Positions 29,604 to 36,093 of a DNA stretch of 64,000 nt are shown one piece after another. Source of the DNA: Dissulfurispira thermophila. Lineage in GTDB: Bacteria; Nitrospirota; Thermodesulfovibrionia; Thermodesulfovibrionales; Dissulfurispiraceae. The notes below the pieces were generated by a model. The model made no database searches. It was not told the DNA's origin and saw nothing but the letters and a program-made list of their open reading frames with translations. Location: assembly GCF_014701235.1 (NCBI RefSeq), contig NZ_AP022873.1:310001-374000 (forward strand), read 5' to 3'. Position 1 is the stretch's first letter. Each line of letters starts with the position of its first letter. The position numbers and the translations under genes were made by a program.

Positions 29604-31385
29604 TCAATCTTTTAGCTTTTGATTTATCCAATAATTAACTAATTTCTTGTAATCATCTTTACAAGTTGTTTTTTCTACCTCCCATTTTTCCGAAACCTTA
29701 GGTTCTTCACTTTTAGGGGCATTGGCTGTTTTAAAAAATTTTATTCGCGATGGTATCTTTACTGCTTCACCAGAAATTATCGCCTCTCCTGTTCTAAGTG
29801 ATGGAAGTAGTTCCATTATTGTTTGCAGTTCGTCTTGAATTGCAGAACTAATATGCCCTCTATCTTTTGAATTATTCATTCTTAGTGCTATGATTGTACC
29901 ACATTGACTTAACACTGTTTCATCTAATTCTGATGGCCTTTGAGTTGCAAGTAATAAGCCCACACCATATTTTCGCCCTTCTTTAGCTATTCTCTGAACG
30001 GTCTTTGAAGAAATTGAATTCTCCCCGGCTCTTAAGTAATTATGAGCTTCTTCAAGGACAACTAACATTGGCTGTTCTTTTCCGCCAATATTTAAGTTTT
30101 GTCCCCAGAATAGTGCATCATATATTATCTTTAGTAATGTCCCTGAAATTGAAGTCATTATTTCTGATGGAACTCCAGACAAATCAAGAATAGTTATCGG
30201 TGTTTCACCACCCAGCCATTCAAGTAGCAAATCACTTAAATCTTTACTACATATTCCAGATAGATCAGGTGTATAATATCCAGGTTTAAAGAGAAAATCA
30301 TACCTACTGTCTTTTAACTTCATTCGGACAGTGTCTAAAAATCCCAATATGCCTTTTGCCTGATGGTTTAAAAAAGGGCTACCTCCACCAGCAGCAGCTG
30401 GTTCATATTCATTGGATATTAAATTTTCAGGATCCCCTTGAGTTCTTAAATTTGTTTTAGTTTCAGGTTTGGCTCTTTCTTTAAAAGTCTGTCTTTCAAA
30501 ATCATCAAGTTCAAACCAAAGTTGCTTAATGCTGAAAGGTATTGGAGTATCAGCTGTAATAATCTCTTTCGCTATTCCAAGGTTTTGTTCCTGATTTACT
30601 TTAATTTTTGCTTCTACTATTTTTTCTCTGAAATAATCTTTGTTTTGGTCAGAGAGATTACCTGAAAAGATACTTCTCAATTCTTCAAAAGGAAGAGCCC
30701 AAAAAGGGATGTATAATTCATTTTCTCCATTGCCAGCATTAATTTTATATACTTTACTCTTACCCATAAACACAGAATTGTATTCACCATGCGGATCAAT
30801 TACTAATATTCGTGAACTCTTAAAATTCTTTTCCACTATAGCACTTAAAATAATCGCAACAGCGTTTGATTTCCCGCTTCCGGTAGATCCCACTATTGCA
30901 CAATGCCTTGATACTAAATTATCTAAATCTATTTTTGCACTTAAACTTTCTGAAACACTTATATTACCTACAGTAATAGATTTTTTTTCATCATATCCGC
31001 CGTAGATTATATCAAGATCAGATATAGTTACTATATGTACCTTATCACCTGTTGTTGGTGATTGAGATACTCCTCGTTCAAATCTTTTCCCAATTTGCTC
31101 ACCAACCAACACCAAAGTTAACCATTGATTATTATTAACACTGTCATAATTTTCTTTTAGATGTTCTAATATGTTTTCTGGAATTGCTGAGGCACCGATT
31201 TGCGTTACTAATCCATAAAGATTTGCATATCCCATTGGTATTTTAAGGAATGAACCTATCTGTCCAACCCGATATACAATACCATCAATGATTAAAATAT
31301 TGGACTTAATATTATCATTGAGTCTAACAGAAATGGTATTCCCGTTAACGCTTACTATTTCACCAATTTCAGCATTTCTATCCAT
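29604..31385 (-). CDS. herA: HerA-like ATPase (SIR2-HerA antiphage partner)
   Basis: 593-residue FtsK/HerA-type hexameric ATPase. An N-terminal beta-barrel (HAS-barrel, about 1-100) precedes Walker A GSTGSGKS (166-173), RILVIDPHGEY, Walker B MLVVLEEAHNYL, and the arginine-bearing ATQRPSELDETVLSQCGT motif. In bacteria HerA next to a SIR2 NADase forms a large complex that depletes NAD or degrades DNA during phage infection. Nineteen bases after the SIR2 gene, same strand. Confidence 0.92.
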   Translation of the reverse strand: MDRNAEIGEIVSVNGNTISVRLNDNIKSNILIIDGIVYRVGQIGSFLKIPMGYANLYGLVTQIGASAIPENILEHLKENYDSVNNNQWLTLVLVGEQIGKRFERGVSQSPTTGDKVHIVTISDLDIIYGGYDEKKSITVGNISVSESLSAKIDLDNLVSRHCAIVGSTGSGKSNAVAIILSAIVEKNFKSSRILVIDPHGEYNSVFMGKSKVYKINAGNGENELYIPFWALPFEELRSIFSGNLSDQNKDYFREKIVEAKIKVNQEQNLGIAKEIITADTPIPFSIKQLWFELDDFERQTFKERAKPETKTNLRTQGDPENLISNEYEPAAAGGGSPFLNHQAKGILGFLDTVRMKLKDSRYDFLFKPGYYTPDLSGICSKDLSDLLLEWLGGETPITILDLSGVPSEIMTSISGTLLKIIYDALFWGQNLNIGGKEQPMLVVLEEAHNYLRAGENSISSKTVQRIAKEGRKYGVGLLLATQRPSELDETVLSQCGTIIALRMNNSKDRGHISSAIQDELQTIMELLPSLRTGEAIISGEAVKIPSRIKFFKTANAPKSEEPKVSEKWEVEKTTCKDDYKKLVNYWINQKLKD

Positions 31386-31404
31386 TGATGTCTCCCATCT
31401 TATT

Positions 31405-32598
31405 TTAAACTATCATAGATTGTAAAAACTTAACTAATTTGGAAAAATCTGTAATTATTAATTTTCCTGTACCTGTCCATTTTTCTTCTCCTTTTTTTTC
31501 TTCATTAAGTTGAGAGGTCATTTCTGGTGCATCTTCATCAAAATAAAGATTCAAACTTATGGTATAATCTTTGCTGGGTTCTCTTTTTAATTTCCAGATA
31601 CCATATTGGCAACCTATAACAGCACTTTTTTTGGCATATACTGATAGTTTTCCGTTACTTTTTGCAATCTCCAAAATATGATTTTCATTGAAATTATCTT
31701 CGTAAAGCAGAGCTAAAACCGATGAAGTGGCTGATGATTGTAGAGATGTAAAAATTCTTTCATTTATATGTTCATCCCCAAAAGAATATCCGCACGTAAT
31801 TAATACAGCATCATCTTGTTTAATAAAATTACTTAATCTATCCATGAGAGCTTCATAAGGTAATTTTTTTGAATCAACATATTTTAAAACAGACGGATAA
31901 ATCAATAAGTTATTATTTTCTGATAAACTTCTAATAACTTTCCTATTACTCTCATCATATGCCCACCCTAATGAGCCATGAATTTTCCATAATTTAGTTT
32001 GTTTGGGTAAAAAGGAAAAGTCATTTACTAATTCCGCACAAAAAAATGGGTTAAAACTTCCACTAAAACCATCAAAATAGGGAATGTTATGATATTCTAA
32101 TCCAATTTCGAATAAATAATCATAATTTGTCGTAAATAATTCTATTGGGAATTTTCTATCGGCTCTTTTAATCCATTCTGCAAAATCAGTCTGAATCTGA
32201 TTCTCTGCTTGAATATCATTGTGTACACTGACTATCTCTTTAATTTTATTTTTTATTTCATCAATCAACGATTTAATACCATTTTTATCTAAGCCATTGA
32301 GAGAGCTATTTCCAATAGCTTGAAACTTTAACTCTAATTTTGAAAGAAGTGTTTCAATATTAAATTTACAATCTCCAATCTCATCTTTTATTTCATTGAC
32401 AGCATCTTTATTTTTTTTATCTGTTATACTTTGAATAATATTATTTGTCATTTCTATCACAGAAGGAACTACTTTAGAATTAAAATTCTTTTTTGCAAGA
32501 GATGTCCCAGCGCCTAACAAAAACCCTATTTTTTTCTTATCACTGACTAATATGGTTTGTAGACCTTTAATATATTCTGTAGGATCATGAGTTATCAT
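31405..32598 (-). CDS. SIR2-domain NADase (SIR2-HerA antiphage system)
   Basis: 397 residues. The Rossmann core has GAGTS (29-33) for NAD binding, TTNYD (156-160), and the catalytic histidine H207 in KIHGSLGW, then GYSFGDEHINERI. These are the features of SIR2-like NAD-hydrolysing effectors. The C-terminal part (about 300-397) is not recognised. Encoded directly before HerA and overlapping hsdS by four bases, so translation is coupled to the specificity subunit. Confidence 0.92.
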   Translation of the reverse strand: MITHDPTEYIKGLQTILVSDKKKIGFLLGAGTSLAKKNFNSKVVPSVIEMTNNIIQSITDKKNKDAVNEIKDEIGDCKFNIETLLSKLELKFQAIGNSSLNGLDKNGIKSLIDEIKNKIKEIVSVHNDIQAENQIQTDFAEWIKRADRKFPIELFTTNYDYLFEIGLEYHNIPYFDGFSGSFNPFFCAELVNDFSFLPKQTKLWKIHGSLGWAYDESNRKVIRSLSENNNLLIYPSVLKYVDSKKLPYEALMDRLSNFIKQDDAVLITCGYSFGDEHINERIFTSLQSSATSSVLALLYEDNFNENHILEIAKSNGKLSVYAKKSAVIGCQYGIWKLKREPSKDYTISLNLYFDEDAPEMTSQLNEEKKGEEKWTGTGKLIITDFSKLVKFLQSMIV

Positions 32599-33911
32599 AG
32601 GCTTTCTCCTTTCTTTTCATTCAAAAATTCCAAATTTATATCATCCACCCTCACCCTTGCCGTCATTAATTCGTGCAATAAGGTACGAAAAAGTTCCTCA
32701 AGTTTTTGTTTTTTAGTGGTGTGGTGTTCTATTTTTTGGTCGATGGTAGAAAGTATATCGGCTATTGCTTGCTGATCGGGAAGAGGGGGAAGGGGGATTT
32801 TTAGATTTTCGATTTGCGATTTATTGATTGATTTAAAAGTTGAACCAGAGCCAAGCCTCTCTATATTATTTTTGTTATAAAGAAAGTAATAAAAAATGAA
32901 ATAACTCTCTGCTTGTTTCCCGTTTATTGCTGCTAATCCTCTACCTATACAATATTCTTTATCGGCAATATTTACATCTCCTACTGGTGCTCTAACTGAT
33001 AATAAGATGCTATTTTTATGTGCTATTTTTTTTGGTTTTGTAGTGTATTTAACATGTTTGGGATGTTTATCTCTAAATTCCGCTTTCCCCTGTAAAAATG
33101 GAAAACCATTACCATCAGTATTATAGGTTTCTCCTGGTGGAGATTGTCCCATTGTAATATCAGCAATTTCCTCCCCCAACTTCACCACCTCCCAGCTTTT
33201 GGGTATGGGGCCGATCTCGGTTTGTTTTTGGCTGGTTTCGGCTCCGCTCAACCAGCCAATGCCTTCGGTAAAGAGTTTATGCATCATTGCTTTTTTCAGT
33301 TCTTTGGTGCGTTCTATGAGTTTGCCCTCGGTTTCAATGGCTTTCTGCACCGTGGAGAGAATAGCGGCGATTTTGCGCTGCTCGGCAAGAGGGGGAAGTG
33401 CGATTTTTAGATTTTCGATTTGCGATTTTGGTAATCTTTGTCTTCCTGTGCTTCCTTCCATTTTGCCTGCAAGAAAATTTCTTATTTTTGGATGTTTAAA
33501 ATAATAGGCAATATATTTGAGATTGATTTTATCGTTAACTCTTATAGGAATGACCTCCGTTGTTGCATAACCCCAACCATTCACTAACCCTTTCACAATT
33601 CCTTGTTTTCCATTTTCAAAACACGGCGTTATTTTTGCAATCAATAAGTCATTTTCATAAACTACAATTCCACTTCTAATTTCATATGCCTTCCTTTTTT
33701 CAAATTGCGAAATAAAAAGATTTTCTTCTGGAATTAGTGACATTGGAATAAAGCAAACAGTTTCAATATTTTCTTTATCAATCGAAAATCGAACATCGTT
33801 ATTCGTCAATAAACAATCCCCCAACTTCACCACCTTCCACTCTTGTGGCAGTGGGCCAAGTTCGGTCATTTTGTAGTCTGTGGAAATTTTAGAATTTATT
33901 TGTTTTATCAT
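32595..33911 (-). CDS. hsdS: Type I restriction enzyme, S (specificity) subunit
   Basis: 438 residues with two target-recognition domains, each opened by the conserved WKVVKLGD / WEVVKLGEE motif (LGPLPQEW and IGPIPKSW). Coiled spacer helices (PPLAEQRKIAAILSTVQKAIE and PPLPDQQAIADILSTIDQKIE) separate and close them. A palindromic sequence at 33230-33257 encodes GWLSGAETS in the linker between the halves. Two-base gap to the GIY-YIG gene, four-base overlap with SIR2. Confidence 0.94.
   Translation of the reverse strand: MIKQINSKISTDYKMTELGPLPQEWKVVKLGDCLLTNNDVRFSIDKENIETVCFIPMSLIPEENLFISQFEKRKAYEIRSGIVVYENDLLIAKITPCFENGKQGIVKGLVNGWGYATTEVIPIRVNDKINLKYIAYYFKHPKIRNFLAGKMEGSTGRQRLPKSQIENLKIALPPLAEQRKIAAILSTVQKAIETEGKLIERTKELKKAMMHKLFTEGIGWLSGAETSQKQTEIGPIPKSWEVVKLGEEIADITMGQSPPGETYNTDGNGFPFLQGKAEFRDKHPKHVKYTTKPKKIAHKNSILLSVRAPVGDVNIADKEYCIGRGLAAINGKQAESYFIFYYFLYNKNNIERLGSGSTFKSINKSQIENLKIPLPPLPDQQAIADILSTIDQKIEHHTTKKQKLEELFRTLLHELMTARVRVDDINLEFLNEKKGESL
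33230..33257. repeat. Inverted repeat inside hsdS
   Basis: GGCTGGTT and AACCAGCC flank TCGGCTCCGCTC. The same GGTT.CGGCTCCGCTCAACC core, in opposite orientation, closes the tandem array at 34186-34205. Confidence 0.6.
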
Positions 33912-33913
33912 AT

Positions 33914-34507
33914 TTACAATCCTTCAAATTCGTTTTTTTGCTCGGGAGATTCGCATTTCACTTCGCTGCCTTCGACTTCGCTGCCTTCGACTTCGCTGCC
34001 TTCGACTTCGCTGCCTTCGACTTCGCTGCCTTCGACTTCGCTCAGGCAGCGAGCGGATGGTGGTTGAGCGGATGGTGGTTGAGCGGACGGTGGTTGAGCG
34101 GACGGTGGTTGAGCGGACGGTGGTTGAGCGGACGGTGGTTGAGCGGACGGTGGTTGAGCGGATGGTGGTTGAACAGACGGTGGTTGAGCGGAGCCGAAAC
34201 CACCGTTATAATTCAAATGGCTACTCTCATTCATGCACTTAGCCAGTTCATGCAATTTTTCAGGCATATTCATTATAAGAGCTTCCTTCTTCTTTCTGCT
34301 CCACCCTTGTACCTGTTTCTCCCTGTAAAATGCTTCATCTATTCTGGTATATTCTTCAAAATACACTAATTTTACCGGCAAACGCTTTTTAGTGTGATTG
34401 GCACCTTCGCCGGCTTGATGCTGTGCCAATCGTAATTCCAAGTTATTGGTACTACCGGTATAATAGCTACCATCGGCACATTCCAGTATGTACATGTATC
34501 CTTTCAT
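33914..34507 (-). CDS. GIY-YIG nuclease with a tandem-repeat C-terminal tail
   Basis: Residues 1-85 are a small GIY-YIG (UvrC-like) endonuclease: [19 protein letters not shown] in LELRLAQHQ, and the E of [11 protein letters not shown]. The remainder is low complexity: about nine units of QPPSA and then five units of VEGSE, encoded by two 15-bp tandem arrays. Whether the tail is translated in vivo is unknown. The gene sits between hsdM (four-base overlap) and hsdS (two-base gap), so it is inside the operon; GIY-YIG genes at this place are unusual. Confidence 0.85.
33961..34200. repeat. Two adjacent 15-bp tandem arrays
   Basis: Array A, unit CTTCGCTGCCTTCGA, five copies from 33961 to 34035 and a partial sixth. 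Array B, unit GAGCGGACGGTGGTT (some with T for C), nine copies from 34051 to 34185. The period is a multiple of three, so changes in copy number keep the reading frame. Confidence 0.95.
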
Positions 34508-36093
34508 ATTCCAAATCTTTCAATAATATTTTTTAATTTGCTATTAATATCAAAAGCTTCTCCTTCCAACTCCTTTATCTCCTCCCATATCTCACCGATG
34601 GGGCGGTATTCTTCCTCTTCGCTTATGTGAATATAGCGTGTGGGGGAAATGTTATAGTCGTTTTTGGCAATCTCTTCTTTGGTTACAATTTTGCTGAATT
34701 TATCAATCTCTTTCCATTCTAAAAATGTGGAAACGATTTTTTCTATTCCTTCATCGGTGATATAGTTTTTAGGTGCGCCTTTTGCAAACTCCTGCGAGGC
34801 ATTGACCAAAAGCATCTTATTTCTGCGCTCAGCCGGTTTATTTTTGTTTAGAAAAATCACTATACCCGGAGCTGTGGTGTTGTAAAACAGGTTTTCAGGC
34901 AGATACAAAACGCCTTCTATATAATCGTTCTCGACAAACCACTTGCGGACCTCTTTTTCTTTATTGGTATTTGCATTCCCAGATCCACGACTTGCTGCAC
35001 CAGTATCAAGCACAACAGCGGCTTTTCCTTTATCATTCAAGCTTGCCAGTATATGCTGCATCCAGCCCCAATCGGCACTCTGTTTGCCGGGAAATCCAGC
35101 GTCTTTAGGAAAACGGCCAAAGGTATCGGCGTCGTAATCCTTTTCGTCAAACATATCCTGATTCCACATCGGATTGGCAACGACGCGGTCAAAGGTCATC
35201 AGGGAACGGTCGCGACCGTTCCCCACATCGCGACCATTTCTTACCTCACGGAATTTTGGATTGCGAAAGGTGTCGCCGATTTCTATCTGTCCCTCCATGT
35301 CATGGATAATCATATTCATATTGGCCATTGCCCAGGTTTGCGGAATGTATTCCTGTCCGTATAGCTTAAGGGGTTGAAATTTTTCAATTCCCCTTGCTTT
35401 CATTTTCTCATTCAATACAAGTTCGCATTTGATAAGAAGCCCTGCCGAGCCACAGCAAGGGTCATATATCCGCATACCAGGCTCAGGGTCCATGATTTTT
35501 GCCATGATTATGCCAACTTCTTTTGGAGTATAAAATTCTCCAGCGCTCTGTCCGCCGCCTTCGGCAAACTTACGAATAAGGTACTCATAACTACGGCCAA
35601 TGATATCCGGCTCAACATCATTTAGCCCAAGTCGCTTTTGACTTATTTTTTCAATCAGATTGGACAGGCGGTCGTCCTCAATATCCCGCACGCCATGGGT
35701 GGTGGCATTAAAATCTATACGATCTATGATGCCTGAAAGTTTTGGGTTTTCTCTGGCAATATCGCGTAAGTGGGTGGTGAGTTTTTCGCCAATTTTGTCG
35801 GTGAGTTTGCGAATTACTGACCATGTGGGTTCTTCTTCATTATCGGGTCTGAAGGGGATATAAAACCGGACCAGGTTTTTATCACGCTCTACCAGTTTAA
35901 AGGCCTTTGCCCGTGAACCAACTTCTTTAGCTATTCTATCAATTTCATCGTCAAAAACATCACAAAGCCGTTTTACAAAAATAAGGGGTAAAATAAAATC
36001 TTTATATTTTGTGGCATCCTGAGCGCCGCGAATGCTACAGGCAGCATCCCATATCCATGCTTCCATTGATTTGTTTTCAGCTTCTTTTACCAT
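34504..36093 (-). CDS. hsdM: Type I restriction enzyme, M (methyltransferase) subunit
   Basis: 529-residue N6-adenine methyltransferase. N-terminal helical domain (1-150), [10 protein letters not shown] (185-194), AdoMet motif [10 protein letters not shown] (211-220), catalytic motif NPMW (307-310, usually NPPF). A short stretch before NPMW (about residues 285-298, [15 protein letters not shown]) is encoded by a perfect palindrome and its echo, absent from typical homologues as far as I know. First gene of the eight-gene minus-strand operon running to 26081. Confidence 0.95.
35202..35223. repeat. 22-bp perfect palindrome inside hsdM
   Basis: A self-complementary sequence centred on TCGCGA with arms GGGAACGG/CCGTTCCC, followed by a partial second copy (ATCGCGACCATT, 35227-35238). 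In-frame, so it adds residues without breaking the gene. Confidence 0.8.

Follow-up and report, generated by a model that had tools for sequence, protein, structure and literature searches.

The repetitive tail of a small GIY-YIG nuclease, encoded in the window (the whole stretch of 64,000 nucleotides from Dissulfurispira thermophila that was analysed), is, judged by its sequence, a local overgrowth of small DNA hairpins flanking the nuclease gene. The locus is likely to be an imported copy of a two-part element, made of a small single-domain GIY-YIG nuclease and of hairpins with a TGAG-loop-CGAA core, in which the nuclease would drive the copying of the hairpins. In many bacterial phyla, genes of this nuclease family lie between hairpins matching their subtype. 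The pairing of the family with hairpin repeats is well supported by the comparison of related loci, and short genomic repeats of a widespread class, for which a partner was missing, probably have it in this nuclease; from these associations we infer cleavage and mobilisation by the nuclease.

The nuclease gene, its arrays and its hairpins

The features of the locus are listed below.

29604..31385, minus strand: HerA-like ATPase gene, same gene run (context)
31405..32598, minus strand: SIR2-like protein gene, same gene run (context)
32595..33911, minus strand: hsdS, type I specificity subunit, host operon, containing hairpin H3
33228..33259, minus strand: hairpin H3, TTGGCTGGT[TGAGCGGAGCCGAA]ACCAGCCAA, 9-bp stem, in hsdS
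33914..34507, minus strand: GIY-YIG nuclease ORF, 197 aa, ATG start (ORF call and Pfam)
33960..34042, minus strand: array 2, a 15-bp unit (3' half of H2) repeated 5.5 times in tandem, encoding VEGSE repeats (TRF, 100% matches)
34023..34052, minus strand: hairpin H2, TCGCTGCC[TGAGCGAAGTCGAA]GGCAGCGA, perfect 8-bp stem, on the strand opposite to H1
34051..34192, minus strand: array 1, a 15-bp unit (one half of H1) repeated 9.5 times in tandem, encoding QPPSA repeats (TRF, 94% matches)
34177..34206, plus strand: hairpin H1, ACGGTGGT[TGAGCGGAGCCGAA]ACCACCGT, perfect 8-bp stem
34214..34264, minus strand: C-terminal helix and next residues, aa 82–98, candidate recognition element (subtype-variable, tracks the hairpin core)
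34286..34504, minus strand: GIY-YIG catalytic domain, aa 2–74 (Pfam, alignment, AlphaFold2)
34504..36093, minus strand: hsdM, type I N6-adenine methylase, host operon

The nuclease ORF is placed between hsdM and hsdS: there is a 4-nt overlap between its start and the hsdM stop, and its own stop lies 2 nt ahead of hsdS. Its assignment to GIY-YIG by the first-pass annotation holds, as Pfam PF01541 scores 66.8 bits, against a cut-off of 22.6. Six residues (Y6, Y16, G18, R26, H30, E63) are invariant in an alignment of 36 relatives. The AlphaFold2 model has a mean pLDDT of at least 93 (93–98) over residues 1–90, followed by a tail modelled as low-confidence coil; the nearest folds are UPF0213, then Slx1. 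By fold and catalytic residues (Pfam, alignment, fold match) the protein belongs to the GIY-YIG superfamily, with its activity predicted. The domain search returned, besides GIY-YIG, only a low-complexity extensin match on the tail, and no Y1 HUH tyrosine transposase domain was found in the ORF. The catalytic domain is N-terminal to the arrays, and there is no downstream start that would drop it. Residues 82–98 are proposed, from their variation among relatives, as the element that may recognize the hairpin.

The GIY-YIG protein matches no PADLOC model, and is therefore not assigned to a known defence family. About 40% of its closest relatives (80 loci, L006–L085) have an hsdM- or hsdS-like gene nearby, and the nuclease is sometimes fused to hsdS (L018, L049); relatives also occur away from restriction-modification operons. 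The SIR2-like and HerA-like genes, found right after hsdS (29604–32598), match the PADLOC SIR2 and HerA models, which suggests a SIR2-HerA pair in the same operon as the nuclease.

Both 15-bp arrays are real and are read in frame, between the catalytic domain and the stop, as originally described. In each of them, the unit corresponds to half of a hairpin plus arm: H1 adjoins the gene-proximal end of array 1, while H2 is located at the start of array 2. The third hairpin, H3, is in frame in the hsdS linker between the two target-recognition halves, where it is read within GWLSGAETSQ. The three window hairpins have stems of 8–9 bp and a 14-nt core, TGAG-CGRAGY-CGAA, with neither a GTAG nor a GTCA tag; on the TGAG strand, the base of the loop could form a T-A pair, tandem G.A pairs and a G-C pair. 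Both strands fold comparably in silico, so that folding indicates no strand preference. The sequence GGTTGAGCGGAGCCGAAACC occurs twice in the window (34182–34201, plus strand; 33234–33253, minus strand), against 0.01 occurrences expected by chance. No hairpin is present upstream of the window nuclease gene: hairpins are found only on its 3' side and in hsdS. For the hsdS hairpin, no clean unoccupied allele was found: the homologues with a shorter linker (GIGHTEFKQTELG in Jeotgalibaca, GIGWLSGAETSQKQTEIG here) are too distant to delimit an insertion.

The tail had been tentatively attributed to a repeat motif dispersed in the genome. An expanded repeat it is, but its source is the hairpins belonging to the nuclease gene, not a repeat of the host: a search of the complete genome (2.37 Mb) finds only three copies of the core TGAGCGNAGNCGAA, clustered within 1 kb at the nuclease locus, and the core therefore is not dispersed in Dissulfurispira thermophila. 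This rules out that the tail came from a repeat scattered through the host genome.

Half-hairpin duplications like those of the window are also found in relatives (L048, L060, L080); their breakpoints vary among loci, so no single cut site can be read from them. The array period is divisible by 3 in 30 of 32 cases inside ORF tails, as opposed to 58 of 121 outside, an excess which is partly due to ascertainment, since other periods terminate the ORF; the window arrays presumably remain in frame because frameshifting versions would end it. Tail length does vary among relatives, as the first-pass annotation supposed. The two closest ones (L006 and L007, with 89–90% identical domains) have no arrays and end within 10–20 residues of the domain match, while others have different in-frame arrays. 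There is no sign, however, that changes in tail length are a programmed way of varying defence.

A close relative of the nuclease gene is absent from the other 30 genomes of the family (best match 118 bits, against 196), and the next best match in a phylum sample of 197 genomes scores 138 bits. Among species genomes, the best matches are found in Bacteroidota (90%) and Calditrichota (89%). From this distribution of close relatives, in Bacteroidota and Calditrichota and not in the own family, a direction of transfer can be proposed: the nuclease gene and its hairpins were probably imported together.

Hairpins and nuclease subtypes in related loci

The association was evaluated, flanks included, at the 80 closest loci and in an even draw of 247 Bacteroidota genomes, 51 of which have a close relative. 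The frame TTCG-N4..7-CTCA (TGAG...CGAA in reverse) was scored near the gene and at least 0.8 kb away from it. Core density per kb, near versus far, is 4.34 versus 0.23 for the CxN subtype (71 of 82 genes), 5.17 versus 0.22 for AYRD (16 of 16) and 3.61 versus 0.48 for SKN (14 of 14); this corresponds to an enrichment beside the gene of 19–24 times for CxN and AYRD and 7.5 times for SKN. The distant NPxW subtype, used as a control for the TTCG/CTCA core, stays at background (0.27 versus 0.39). For AKK-type genes, a core is nearby in only 11 of 23.

The cores are the centre of true stems. Among 495 cores near genes, 57% are flanked by an uninterrupted run of at least four pairs, a share that falls to 5.6% if the arms of different loci are exchanged; 56 distinct six-base arms with at least five pairs are found. 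Stem covariation in 69 N-type hairpins scores 0.536, whereas the controls give 0.184 (shuffled letters) and 0.08–0.20 (slid partners).

The inner loop differs according to the C-terminal subtype: RCTHCG accompanies CxN[ED]x, AG[AT]RC accompanies AYRD, ACARG accompanies SKN and, in part, SSCTA accompanies AKK. At 101 of 104 loci, the dominant core is the one that goes with the subtype (mean 48.6 and maximum 63 in 20000 shuffles), a count inflated by shared ancestry, as subtype and core are adjacent and inherited together. Since the subtype patterns were picked after inspecting the tails of the first loci, the second sample (L146–L215) is the cleaner test. On a tree built from the N-terminal 78 residues, 22 changes are counted for the core and as many for the C-terminus (the core changes at least 29 times in shuffled data), with only 1–3 independent subtype/core switches per core on supported branches. 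The rule is not valid for all lineages, as indicated by a Sphingomonas GIY-YIG gene (L236), 48% identical and with a different C-terminus, which is flanked by the window-type core TTCGACTTCGCTCA. In Methylobacterium bullatum (L237), the gene lies between CCTCATCCTGAGG...CCTCGAAGGAGG repeats, forming a longer hairpin in which the TTCG...CTCA frame is kept. For the window's sub-lineage, these comparisons show repeats that are hairpins with compensating stems, the loop being tied, at the level of sequence, to the C-terminal subtype of the nuclease.

Core counts were also compared among whole genomes. In the 247 Bacteroidota genomes, N-core counts are bimodal, mostly 0–1 and in some genomes up to 86, with the reversed-pattern control near zero. 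At least five copies of the N core are present in 13 of 24 genomes with a CxN nuclease and in 26 of 223 without (p=4e-6); the figures are 4 of 4 and 5 of 243 for the Y core and the AYRD/SRRK nuclease (p=8e-7), 7 of 10 and 27 of 237 for the P core and the SKN nuclease (p=5e-5). In the cross-controls, the P core is not linked to the CxN nuclease (p=0.75); N-core abundance is also tied to the SKN nuclease (p=0.001), and the genome-level links are therefore partly confounded. The dispersed core copies are often arranged as inverted pairs, about 40–70 bp apart, mostly starting with GTCA; their stems are shorter, with at least four pairs in 13 of 32. A close cognate nuclease is missing in 26 of the 39 N-rich genomes. 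Gene loss could explain N-rich genomes without a nuclease; a broken CxN-type nuclease is left near N hairpins in two genomes (G187 and G038). Two Bacteroidota genomes (G021 and G209) feature 80 and 28 N cores, respectively, with no nuclease match even at E 0.001: their cores may be either orphan repeats or repeats served by another enzyme.

Repeats around the wider family, and their possible mobility

A motif-free test was used for the wider family: a repeat common to the 300 bp upstream and the 400 bp downstream of the gene was sought, with a score of at least 14, equally spaced windows from the same loci serving as controls. Such a repeat is found at 72% of 163 loci and in 4.1% of 531 control window pairs; by set, the frequency is 77% for close Bacteroidota, 77% for distant ones, 57% for the own phylum and 82% for plasmid records. 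Flanking repeats are much commoner at genes of this nuclease family than in windows nearby. KxLSRxEK (YhbQ-like) members have no repeat common to both flanks in the same test.

For genes ending in NPxWxDL, GTCAT/ATGAC is present in 26 of the 38 common repeats. CGTC REPs adjoin genes of this type in Azospirillum, Neorhizobium, Shinella, Sinorhizobium, Rhizobium, Novosphingobium, Sphingobium, Aeromonas and Neisseria gonorrhoeae (dRS3); one-sided CGTC REPs lie beside a GIY-YIG gene in Photobacterium and R. tumorigenes. These named replicons were found with a GIY-YIG-like sequence, used as a search probe only. Members ending in NPxWxDL are thus flanked by GTCA/CGTC-tagged REPs, including the Neisseria dRS3. 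We give even chances to a broader proposal, that the entire superfamily of GTCA/CGTC-tagged REPs, in all its phyla (with dRS3 and possibly the Rickettsia in-gene palindromes), would have small single-domain GIY-YIG nucleases as its dedicated enzymes. Enzymes and repeats would then form a system parallel to RAYT/REP but not homologous to it, with post-catalytic residues reading the hairpin loop.

Other arrangements were encountered within the family. At two Bacteroidota loci (L134, L137), a GIY-YIG gene of the EKYLKSxxGK subtype and its flank have in common GGTTCGAATCC..., presumably a sequence resembling a tRNA 3' end; this suggests that loci of this subtype may be small elements at tRNA ends. 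GIY-YIG genes may also occur in tandem, two or three in a row, spaced by 320–350 bp (L135 in G149, L134 in G253) or by about 900 bp (L206 in G171). On a Planktothrix agardhii plasmid (L250), the GIY-YIG gene is flanked by GTCATTCTGAG repeats and lies between an MmeI-type restriction-modification gene and the DISARM helicase drmA.

Occupied and unoccupied sites were found for NPxWxDL-type relatives, not for the window copy. In A. lipoferum, REPs, gene and REPs are located between sufB and sufC; the same interval in A. ramasamyi, A. oryzae and Azospirillum B510 (flanks 95–97% identical) is a short spacer, with neither gene nor REP. Between gltA and lpxB, S. meliloti Ak57 features a REP, a GIY-YIG remnant, REPs and an intact gene, while Sinorhizobium K101 (about 95%) has two degenerate REPs only. 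The two comparisons suggest mobility; being unpolarized, they may reflect loss as well as gain. A single 21-bp hairpin, in frame in hsdM, is present at one locus (L046) and absent from another (L037), again an unpolarized difference.

According to the proposed mechanism, the nuclease would use the residues that follow its catalytic domain to bind its own hairpin, most likely in the extruded state (in single-stranded DNA or a cruciform), and would nick it. Repair or recombination would then place copies of the hairpins elsewhere, at times along with the gene they enclose, so that the nuclease would drive hairpin copying in the way proposed for RAYTs and GTAG REPs. The half-hairpins of the QPPSA and VEGSE arrays would have been multiplied by slippage or break repair.

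Hairpins might instead spread otherwise, with a mobile GIY-YIG gene inserting at or near them and cutting to home, without spreading them. As no REP is present at the unoccupied sufB-sufC sites of Azospirillum, hairpins and gene appear there together, which makes this alternative unlikely; the tracking of nuclease subtype by loop type and the enrichment of cognate nucleases in hairpin-rich genomes also speak against it. It would fit the gltA-lpxB site, where the gene lies between REPs in one strain and only degenerate REPs are present in the other, as well as the many genomes that keep hairpins without a close nuclease; it also has a precedent in the known insertion of IS elements into REPs (PMC1525189).

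Up to 86 copies per genome, in-frame copies within hsdM and hsdS, inverted dimers far from the gene, and variable positions and copy numbers make it quite improbable that the hairpins, instead of being mobile DNA, serve the nuclease gene as terminators or as autoregulatory binding sites in DNA or RNA, even if they are near the gene on both sides, within the transcript in the window, and even if their tandem G.A-type TGAG/CGAA cores could fold in RNA too. An ordinary tandem repeat, i.e. the disordered tail of a restriction-associated nuclease, grown by slippage with no tie to mobile repeats, would agree with near-perfect, in-frame arrays and with the predicted disorder, but hardly deserves credit, being already contradicted by relatives, in which both units recur, as hairpin halves, at the same place with other stems and loops, and by the third hairpin copy, sitting in hsdS.

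Comparison with known systems

CGTC-type and related hairpin repeats are present in very many bacterial genomes; now that a nuclease is consistently found with them and its subtypes have their own hairpins, the question of their origin can be addressed with oligonucleotides and a single protein of about 100 residues. If the reading is correct, selfish repeats may be driven by a GIY-YIG nuclease, not by a transposase; the reading would account for many unusual in-frame extensions and insertions of annotated proteins; and nuclease C-termini with their matching DNA loops would be available as a compact natural collection. In the open-access literature searched, neither a description of the nuclease-hairpin system, nor the core strings, nor the pairing of GIY-YIG with dRS3 was found; one paper, on M. 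catarrhalis carriage, mentions both GIY-YIG and repetitive extragenic sequences. A REP-like palindrome from C. abyssi was considered as the same repeat and discarded, as its sequence is different.

The closest proteins by sequence and fold are UPF0213/YhbQ-like proteins (PDB 1zg2, 1ywl) and Slx1. The latter is a structure-selective nuclease for branched DNA, which requires Slx4; among the former, the KxLSRxEK-type relatives differ from the window family by having no flanking repeats. Free-standing GIY-YIG homing endonucleases and group I intron endonucleases have the same fold and spread selfishly by cutting, the nearest known logic to that proposed here. Unlike them, the window element has neither an intron nor a separate DNA-binding domain, and its targets appear to be many short hairpins, instead of one long site.

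CGTC-tagged REPs include the Neisseria dRS3 and the Rickettsia RPE-4 and RPE-6, with in-frame insertion of RPE into genes also described (PMC3733652); the 2013 survey that defined them reports them as apparently devoid of a dedicated transposase (PMC3733652). They resemble the present repeats in flanking NPxWxDL-ending GIY-YIG genes and in the GTCA start of most dispersed Bacteroidota cores. Tag, 8–9 bp stem and 4–5 nt loop are found together around NPxWxDL-type genes elsewhere, whereas the window hairpins have no GTCA tag and a longer core.

The REP/RAYT (TnpA-REP) system, with its GTAG-tagged REPs and REPINs, is described in PMC2817692, PMC3116915, PMC3686654, PMC8266576 and PMC3733652. In both systems, short palindromic repeats occur in tens of copies, often as inverted dimers; a single small gene lies between repeats; the repeat type tracks the gene subtype; and orphan repeats are found where the gene is missing. 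As in REP/RAYT, genes of the present family lie between palindromic repeats related to dispersed copies, the window repeats themselves being undispersed. The enzymes are different, a GIY-YIG nuclease here and a Y1 HUH tyrosine transposase in RAYTs, and so is the conserved part of the repeat, which is an in-stem TGAG-loop-CGAA core or a GTCA tag here and GTAG in RAYT repeats. By these sequence features, the element can be said to work like RAYT/REP, without being a member of it.
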